Below are positions 6,782 through 22,988 of a stretch of 64,000 nucleotides of DNA, piece after piece. This DNA comes from Tubiluchus corallicola. Its lineage: Eukaryota; Priapulida; Priapulimorpha; Priapulimorphida; Tubiluchidae. The first letter of the stretch is position 1, and each line of letters opens with the position of its first letter. Where the stretch lies: positions 226,748 to 290,747 of the forward strand of contig JAQGDQ010000030.1 in the NCBI GenBank assembly GCA_030141605.1, written 5' to 3'. The notes under the pieces are model-generated. The model did no database searches. It saw only the letters and a program-made list of their open reading frames with translations, and was not told the origin of the DNA. The translations under genes were made by a program, and so were the position numbers.

Positions 6782-9700
6782 ATGACAAATTCAATCATGA
6801 AAACTGCGCTTTCGTTCTCTCTGTTACTAAACATGATTGGACTACTGACAAGAGCTGTATCACAGAGCTCTGCTCTGGCTTCAGAAATTTTCCAGATTTG
6901 CCAAGGTAACCACTGTGAAGCAAGCAATCGCATGACTATCTATCCATCCAAAGATAATTTTTATATTCTTGTGCTGGCACAACTGCACGAACCAGGAGAT
7001 ACTCCATTCAAGTGCGGTCAAAAACTTTCAAAGACAGTTATTCAAAACGTAGAAGCGGTGTTCTTTAGCATGGACCAGGTAAACAGCAATGCTACTTTAC
7101 TTCACGGTATCGATATTGGGGCAATAGTCGTCGATACATGTGGTCAACCAGAAATCGCATCCAGAATTGTCCTAGAACTCCTTAGTGGTGATGTGACAAT
7201 AAGGACAAAGTTCGCTAATCAGACTGTCGGTCTGAACCAAATTGCTGCAGTTGTCGATCTGGCAGCGGCAGGTGGAAGTCAAGCACCGGCATCTCTGTCG
7301 GAGCTTGGCGTCACTGCTATTAATTTGAACTCTTATTCTGATCCAACACGTTCTGCATTCACACTTCAGTTGGCCACAAATGTAAAAGAACAAGCGGAAA
7401 TGTTTGGAGTTCTTCTCCGAACATTCCGTTACACGTTTGTCTCTGTTGTTTACAGCGAAAGTCTTCAAGGTCAAGCTAGTAACCTGGCTTTTAAAATTGA
7501 GGCAGAGAAGCAGGGCATCTGCATAGCCATGTCCATTCCTGTACCAACGTATGTGGATTATAATAAATATATGGAAAGGATTTTACTGTTTTTGAAGCGT
7601 CGTCAAGGAGATGGAGCTCGAGCTCTGATATTGTGGCTGGAAGTTGACCAGATCCACGAATTTTTACTTGCCATGAAAAGACTACGTGTCAATGGTATTT
7701 TGGGATCACAAGATTTTATTTTGCTATTACCTACAACGTGGGGAAATATGCAGGTATGTTTTTAGAATAATTATCTATTGCTCGAATGATGTATGTATAT
7801 ACGATCGATGTGAACACATTAGAACATGGCATGACTAAAACATTTCTGCTGATCAAACAGAGCCTCATCCCAGGGGTTGTCATTGGTAATTAGCTAGGTT
7901 CTGGACCAGCCAGCCAGCCAGTTATAGTCATTCAACATTAGTACTGTACTAGTAAGTAGTCTATTTTAGGTCAAAATACTAGATTTTGCCTGCTGTTGAA
8001 CTAAAAAATCAATAACACAGCGCTGCCGTTCACAATAATGCTTTGTTGTGCTTATTTGTTGTTTTTACAACTTACTTCGTTAACCTTTTAATTTATCGTT
8101 AGTTATTAGTTGGGAGCATGAGCTGCGTTTTAATGTCGTTGTTTTCAAAGAATTACATGGTTCTTAAGTAGAAGCTGTAACTGAGAATCACTTGTGCACA
8201 ATCCAAAAGCCAGTCAGAAGCTGTTCAGCTGTGTAAATCTTCAAACGCATAAAAATCTATTAAAATTATATTAAATTTTTGACGGACTAAAGACCACTCT
8301 TTCAACAATTCCTCTACAAATCAGAGTCAAACTTATATATATGCAAGACTGAGTGAAGTTCTATTAAAGGTAGCCTGCAATACTTGATCTTTCTTGTGAA
8401 CAGATGGCATAACGCAGTGGCAATGTGCTAATGCTAACACTATTTATACGTTAGTGTCGCCGTCTACTAAAATTTATTTCACACAAATGAAATCTAATGT
8501 ACCTTTAATACATTTAGAAAACTGCACATTCAAAAGTCTGAAAGGCGAAATCATTTTTCAAAAAGAAACATTGATAATGGAGTGATGATTTGTAGAGCTG
8601 CTCCTACAATCAAACGATGCTTCATCCATGTTAAAAACTATAATATAAAAATTAATATATATATATTATACAATATATATATATTAATTTTATATATATT
8701 ATATTATATTATATTATATTATATTATATTATATTATATTATATTATATTATATTATATTATATTATATTATATTATATAATATAATATAATATTATATT
8801 ATATTATATATATAATATAATATAATATAATATAATATAATATAATATAATATAATATAATATAATATAATATAATATAATATAATATAATATAATATAA
8901 TATAATATAATATAATATAATATAATATAATATAATATAATATTATATTATATTATATTATATTATATTATATTATATTATATTATATTATATTATATTA
9001 TATTATATTATATTATATTATATTATATTATATTATATTATATTATATTACAATATTAATTTTCATGTTTTTTTTCTTTTCTTGGGCAGATACGTCACAA
9101 CACTATACAAGTAGACTTTCAAGGGTCTCTCATCCTCAGCGAAAATTCTCAGAAAGAATTGGCAGTTTTTAGACAGTATTTCATATGGCTAGATCCGCTG
9201 CGAAATGTGAGGAATCAATGGTTTCCACAATACTGGGGAGACATTTTTCGGTGTCACCCTGTATTACCACAATGTATTAGTAAGTCTTACTTTTATTATG
9301 CATTAATTCATAATTTTCTCCCCTTAGTAAATAAACAGACCTGTAGATTAATGAATCCGCTATAAAATTAATTAAAACTAATTTTGTTTCCATGAATATA
9401 GTTATTATAGTGTAAAACTACAGAAAAACAAAAATGTTACAAAAAAATTAATTGCTATTTTCATGGAGAGTGTTTCATAAGGAATTCTTTTATACTGAAA
9501 AATTGTTAGAACCTGCAAGTCTCATAGGAATCGTCCGAGGAACATCGTTTTCCATAAGATTTGTCTTTTAATAAATCATACTCATAAAATTCATAGAGTC
9601 TGTTGACTCTGTTCAGCTTGGTTGTTCATTCTGTTTTAATTAACTGAATAAACCGTTTATTCTGTTTATTCAGTGTACGTCGTAAAATAATGTTAAAATA

Positions 9701-22988: not shown

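Follow-up and report, generated by a model that had tools for sequence, protein, structure and literature searches.

A predicted class C receptor gene of the priapulid Tubiluchus corallicola with two Venus flytrap domains in one chain

The usual view of class C G protein-coupled receptors (GPCRs) is that two chains work together, their Venus flytrap (VFT) domains facing each other. We describe here a predicted class C gene, located in 64,000 nucleotides of the priapulid Tubiluchus corallicola (assembly GCA_030141605.1, contig JAQGDQ010000030.1, positions 226,748 to 290,747 of the forward strand; this whole stretch is called the window), whose predicted product is a receptor with two VFTs in a single chain. 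Metabotropic glutamate receptors (mGluRs) share with it the VFT framework cysteines and the class C seven-transmembrane domain (7TM), and they are its best PDB matches for both the VFTs and the 7TM. However, mGluRs have one VFT per chain and an NCD3G cysteine-rich domain between VFT and 7TM, whereas the window gene has two VFTs and only a three-cysteine motif after each, and the mGluR glutamate contacts (the backbone set, R68 and K396 of mGlu5) are mostly lost in both window VFTs. GABAB receptors, like the window gene, have a VFT on a class C 7TM without a cysteine-rich domain (PMC12716839); the window gene differs from them in having two VFTs per chain and in its PDB relatives, which among those listed are not GABAB chains. 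The animal architectures named in the same paper are ANF with NCD3G, ANF alone and Cache with EGF (PMC12716839).

Chains with tandem VFTs are described for receptors of other kinds. BvgS-type kinases carry tandem, unequal VFTs, one distal and one membrane-proximal, with 24% identity between VFT1 and VFT2 compared to 21% in the window gene (PMC4352136). The likeness is an analogy of layout only; these proteins have a kinase output, and none was detected in the window gene, for which Pfam shows ANF_receptor and 7tm_3 only. BvgS forms an intertwined homodimer in which the distal VFT1s are mobile and the proximal VFT2s closed, the two kinds of VFT being unlike and both of them important (PMC4352136). 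Trypanosome receptor adenylate cyclases likewise have two predicted VFT domains before the membrane, but they possess one transmembrane (TM) helix and a cyclase domain and are not GPCRs (PMC6027212). Venus kinase receptors are, like the window gene, invertebrate proteins with a class-C-like VFT; they differ in having a single VFT module, a single TM helix and a tyrosine kinase. No class C GPCR with two VFTs was found in the titles and abstract beginnings of the literature searched, and unremarked models may exist among public predicted proteins; PMC12716839, PMC6307864 and PMC4302439 nowhere use the word "tandem" in their main texts.

The receptor gene was modelled at 6782-22988 on the plus strand as 16 exons with GT-AG introns and compatible phases (Table 1). 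A preliminary description of this DNA, made from the sequence alone, had proposed 16 exons in one frame encoding 1,444 residues; the exons and the frame were recovered, and the rebuilt model yields 1,451 residues, its ends differing slightly. Two candidate start Met codons are present (6782 and 6797), and the chain runs from a leader-like start through VFT1, VFT2 and the class C 7TM to a tail. Given the base composition of the window, with bases treated as independent, the chance of a stop-free frame is 3e-11 for exon 1 and 4e-8 for exon 5, so improbable that these frames are not attributable to chance. GC content is 42.9% in exons versus 33.1% in introns. The join between the two VFTs is independent of splice prediction, because exon 5 is a 226-codon frame open across both, holding the VFT1 end (VGTY), then CVQSCDVC, then the VFT2 opening HNAGPTPFTCG. 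The paired flytrap motifs listed in the preliminary description were all present, namely HEPGDTPFKCG and HNAGPTPFTCG, WFPQYWGDIFRC and WFQQFWQEHFQC, and VGTY and IGTW. That description had also considered a promoter within exon 5, which would join only one flytrap to the 7TM; besides the open frame across the join, no leader-like stretch was found between VFT1 and VFT2 in the protein and its hydropathy list. Two introns contain simple arrays: intron 1 has about 395 bases of TATAT (8656-9050), and intron 5 about 335 bases of GA (12986-13320).

Profile searches placed the domains above the curated Pfam cut-offs, with ANF_receptor matching the whole model in two stretches (177.9 bits, E = 3.8e-52) and 7tm_3 once (109.3 bits, cut-off 33.5, E = 3.4e-31). 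Searched separately, the halves matched ANF_receptor with E = 7.5e-22 (VFT1) and E = 3.7e-30 (VFT2). In phmmer searches of PDB, the nearest sequences were mGlu5 for VFT1 (E = 3.4e-29, residues 75-507), mGlu1 for VFT2 (E = 1.8e-38) and mGlu2 for the 7TM (E = 1.1e-15). Matches were to mGlu and CaSR for the VFTs (best 60 of 83 sequences for VFT1 and best 60 of 90 for VFT2) and to mGlu and GPRC5D for the 7TM (all 47 sequences), and no GABAB chain stood among any of these. The features that we take to be class C hallmarks, namely the TM3 cysteine, PEN..E, IIW.VW and LPKVY, were found in the window 7TM in the protein and the PDB alignments. NCD3G gave no Pfam match at E up to 1, with most matches above about 0.1 removed by the HMMER filters. 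The remainder of the window and the adjoining 9.7 kb upstream on contig C390 yielded no other class C match at E = 1e-3. These results, together with the second gene described next, agree with the earlier proposal of two mGluR-type flytraps on one class C 7TM: judged by its sequence, the window gene is a class C, mGluR-like GPCR carrying two flytraps in one chain.

With an E-value limit of 1e-4, the whole window protein matched the same assembly 33 times, in many cases at the window gene itself, and a second tandem gene was identified on contig C1055. Joined in frame, five minus-strand exons encode a 1,483-residue chain whose N-terminal part was not located; 2.5 kb of N lie upstream. Pfam recognised ANF_receptor in two stretches (221.6 bits) and 7tm_3 (125.4 bits) but not NCD3G, and the nearest PDB sequences were mGlu1 for VFT1 (7.7e-32) and mGlu7 for VFT2 (2.3e-37). 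Identity to the window gene was 39% across window residues 984-1310, which include the 7TM, and 28-30% in VFT2. The tail motif YDGGSQF has one copy in the window gene and two in C1055. Since two genes so diverged repeat one domain order, an accident of assembly or annotation is unlikely, and the tandem arrangement looks like a real receptor design. The two-flytrap layout also seems to predate the duplication that gave the two genes, because they share both layout and YDGGSQF at 39% identity. At 41406-42642 (minus strand) C1055 carries a 33-base minisatellite of 37 copies spanning the boundary between the VFT2 exon and the intron after it; its unit includes the final codons of that exon and the splice donor, and the exon frame stays open through several copies. 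Use of a later donor copy would insert in-frame steps of 11 residues at the end of the VFT.

We then grouped domain matches across the assembly by contig, strand and distance, using all 117 ANF_receptor matches and 71 of the 99 7tm_3 matches; 28 of the latter were set aside (26 below cut-off and 2 above it only with their neighbours), the window's own match below cut-off was retained, and both lists are lower bounds. At least 32 groups had both domains and three showed two N-lobe copies, the tandem genes being 2 of the 32, the window gene and C1055; the remaining 30 are single as far as exon-wise matching shows. A single VFT is firmer in seven groups in which a separate Met and leader-like stretch open the VFT frame (C1422, C1730, C25, C2297, C2085, C1710 and C2252 plus strand). 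Five of these single-VFT genes (C1422, C1730, C25, C2297 and C2085) carry a CCW.C..C cysteine-rich stretch, so that ordinary class C receptors coexist here with tandem ones. The candidate third tandem gene, C2252 plus, had two N-lobe matches about 36 kb apart and was rejected: a Met and a hydrophobic leader belong to the nearer VFT frame itself, and the pieces farther away resemble an unlike VFT gene that also has a leader. The VFT pairs on C1820 and C1465 were rejected as well: by eye, all four open frames begin with a separate Met and leader-like stretch, and the 7tm_3 list includes neither contig; they were taken as separate genes. C1710 has one VFT with its own leader-like start followed by the 7TM, with a run of N between, and was taken as single. 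At C1465:12800-17800 two VFT N-lobe frames about 1.2 kb apart look alike by eye and may be tandem genes or alternative first exons. C1730 and C879 are class C VFT genes with 95% VFT identity, either a recent duplicate or an uncollapsed haplotype.

The origin of the two flytraps was examined by comparing their sequences, trees and splice sites. A recent internal duplication was not supported, window VFT1 and VFT2 (21% identical) being no closer to each other than either is to human mGlu5 and mGlu7 (22-25%). In a tree of 13 VFTs the two VFT2s grouped together (94/93), both VFT1s stood on long branches, and a grouping of the two VFT1s was not shown. The p-AU values were 0.10 for a clade of window VFT1 and VFT2, 0.154 for the two VFT1s and 0.024 for all four tandem VFTs, the last arguing weakly against a single origin of the four. 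Set against this result is a phase-0 splice site shared by the ends of all four, preceding VGTY, IGTW, VFDY and VGKY. A donor-like site occurs at the same place in C1710 (donor side only), and open frames continue across this place in C1422, C1730, C25, C2297 and C2085.

A three-cysteine motif follows every tandem VFT (CVQSCDVC and CQRNECDQC in the window gene, CSSYCEEC and CLKITCKSC in C1055), and the C1055 linker holds an additional one, CPPLDCALC. Seven framework cysteines are kept in both window VFTs. The lobe-2 cysteine, which in mGlu3 presumably ties the VFT to the cysteine-rich domain, was present in 13 of the 13 VFTs compared, including all four tandem ones. The three motif cysteines and the lobe-2 cysteine could form two disulfides, a minimal cap replacing the cysteine-rich domain. 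The linker between VFT1 and VFT2 measures 41 residues in the window gene versus 236 in C1055, where it includes 39 Pro, 37 Glu and 8 Cys. The lobe-1 interface helix, read from one alignment, was ungapped in window VFT2 and four residues shorter in window VFT1.

To compare the ligand pockets, 13 mGlu5 contact positions were taken from one alignment of the 13 VFTs, and six of them (S151, S152, T175, D195, Y223 and D305) were presumed to hold the amino-acid backbone. All six are kept in human mGlu7 and in C1055 VFT1, compared to 1/6 in C1055 VFT2, 1/6 in window VFT1 and 2/6 in window VFT2. In single-VFT genes the score was 5/6 for C25, 4/6 for C1730, C879 and C2297, 3/6 for C1422, 2/6 for C2085 and 1/6 for C1710. 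The R68 equivalent is N in both window VFTs, and the K396 equivalent is H and S (one alignment at about 25% identity). Non-conservative changes at this pair, which corresponds to Arg78 and Lys409 of mGluR1, are predicted to impair the binding of glutamate (PMC6307864). These comparisons suggest that C1055 VFT1 probably still binds an amino acid, and that the VFT2 of both genes and window VFT1 probably lack the known mode of amino-acid binding.

Our leading proposal, which we hold tentatively, is a two-storey ectodomain in which VFT1 senses and VFT2 couples and dimerises. Two chains would dimerise by way of VFT2, the module nearer the membrane, just as mGluRs use the one VFT they have; VFT2, whose amino-acid site is mostly gone in both tandem receptors, would serve as the coupling and dimerisation module and VFT1 as the distal sensor. 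The ligand of C1055 VFT1 would be an alpha-amino acid or a close relative, and window VFT1, with its changed pocket, would respond to a different ligand or a partner protein. When VFT1 closes or docks, the VFT2 dimer would be altered, and the change would reach the 7TM through a short disulfide-capped stalk (the three motif cysteines plus the lobe-2 cysteine) acting in place of the mGluR cysteine-rich domain.

Several observations weigh against this proposal. The tandem VFTs are only 24-26% identical to mGlu5, so contact calls are unsafe around gaps; contact loss is graded across the assembly and not peculiar to tandem genes, and because single-VFT genes lose contacts too, a low score is no proof of a non-sensing VFT. 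The E279 equivalent is kept in window VFT1, and both E279 and K396 are changed in C1055 VFT1. Being present in all VFTs compared, the lobe-2 cysteine is no marker of tandem genes, and the two linkers differ almost sixfold in length. The helix C gap of window VFT1 occurs in C1710 too, and the interface positions of window VFT2 (D, L, V, L, S, Y, V) are hydrophobic only in part. No cysteine of any tandem VFT aligned with the mGlu inter-chain disulfide cysteine in the 13-VFT alignment, whereas a pairwise alignment to mGlu1 places a window VFT2 cysteine there. C1055 has MRKVY in place of LPKVY.

It is rather unlikely, in our estimate, that the chain is instead a pseudo-dimer in itself, a possibility raised in the preliminary description, with VFT1 and VFT2 facing each other through their lobe-1 helices as a full clamshell pair on one 7TM. 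The framework cysteines retained in both window VFTs, the lack of a conserved inter-chain disulfide cysteine in tandem VFTs and a 41-residue linker that may suffice to span the two side by side would suit such a pair, as would the resemblance of unequal VFTs to GABAB-type heterodimers. However, the interface helix is shortened in window VFT1, the long Pro- and Glu-rich linker of C1055 is unlike what a fixed intra-chain pair needs, and the VFT2s group together while the VFT1s were not shown to. Given the short VFT1 helix and the disparate linkers, a stacked, loosely tethered VFT1 fits better than a rigid intra-chain pair.

Unlikely, too, is a dual sensor, in which each VFT has a separate ligand and the 7TM reads the combination, as the preliminary description had suggested in proposing two ligands. 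Two genes with two VFTs per chain are consistent with it, low-contact single-VFT receptors (C2085 and C1710) presumably still sense something, and multi-VFT sensor kinases potentially integrate several signals (PMC4352136). For amino acids, however, this reading is weakened by the few backbone contacts retained in the window VFTs; both VFT2s and window VFT1 having lost most of them, only other kinds of ligand would be possible there. We regard as distinctly improbable the broader idea of a separate animal class C branch, with a two-flytrap ectodomain and three-cysteine stalk, in which one chain would be a complete ligand-binding dimer and pairing unnecessary. Very improbable is a locus that, by using different starts or ends, yields a VFT1-only form and a VFT2-7TM receptor, so that the tandem model would be an artefact of reading the sequence: the 2,294-base intron 5 could conceal an alternative start and Schistosoma has an mGluR-related VFT protein without a 7TM (PMC3206071), but exon 5 is open through the join, no leader-like stretch separates the VFTs, C1055 repeats the layout, and the searched surroundings hold no further class C match.

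Table 1. Exons of the predicted two-flytrap receptor gene, in window positions
Feature	Position	Strand	Basis
Exon 1: start, leader-like stretch (~6782-6865), most of VFT1	6782..7753	+	model, ANF_receptor, mGlu5 match
Exon 2: VFT1, WFPQYWGDIFRC block	9090..9279	+	model, mGlu5 alignment
Exon 3: VFT1	9853..9978	+	model, mGlu5 alignment
Exon 4: VFT1 as far as the phase-0 junction preceding VGTY	10330..10535	+	model
Exon 5: VFT1 end (VGTY, 10917-10952), three-cysteine motif (11016-11039), VFT2 start (~11076 on)	10917..11595	+	single open frame
Exon 6: VFT2	13890..14150	+	model, mGlu1 alignment
Exon 7: VFT2, WFQQFWQEHFQC block	14446..14683	+	model, mGlu1 alignment
Exon 8: VFT2	15167..15326	+	model, mGlu1 alignment
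Exon 9: VFT2 as far as the phase-0 junction preceding IGTW	15604..15732	+	model
Exon 10: VFT2 end and membrane-proximal three-cysteine motif (16251-16277)	16158..16286	+	model, motif list
Exon 11: juxtamembrane part and TM1	16994..17183	+	model, Pfam, PDB match
Exon 12: TM2-TM3	17667..17810	+	model, Pfam, PDB match
Exon 13: TM4 region	19424..19583	+	model, Pfam, PDB match
Exon 14: TM5-TM6	20941..21158	+	model, Pfam, PDB match
Exon 15: TM7 with LPKVYIF	21714..21826	+	model, Pfam, PDB match
Exon 16: cytoplasmic tail with YDGGSQF (22704-22724), motif also in C1055 tail; stop	22548..22988	+	model

Elsewhere in the window, two plus-strand open frames of 2,095 codons (48136-54420) and 569 codons (44396-46102) had no Pfam match at E = 0.01 and are perhaps large exons of one or two unrecognised downstream genes. 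Open frames at 4079-4699 and 23880-24329 (plus strand) resemble, by eye, pieces of LINE-type reverse transcriptase; Pfam gave nothing above cut-off for 4079-4378. Assembly-wide, 98 matches to the Cys-loop ligand-binding domain were found, several of them clustered (C97, C541 and C864), which points to a large channel family. Such receptors argue for an animal other than a demosponge or a ctenophore; a search for COX1 gave no match.

A chain with two VFTs and one 7TM, present in two diverged genes, would be a natural test of whether class C receptors need pairing of their VFTs, of their 7TMs or of both, and tandem receptors would also test whether signal transfer needs a cysteine-rich domain. 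The contrast between C1055 VFT1, which keeps its contacts, and the other three tandem VFTs, which have mostly lost them, leads to concrete ligand predictions.
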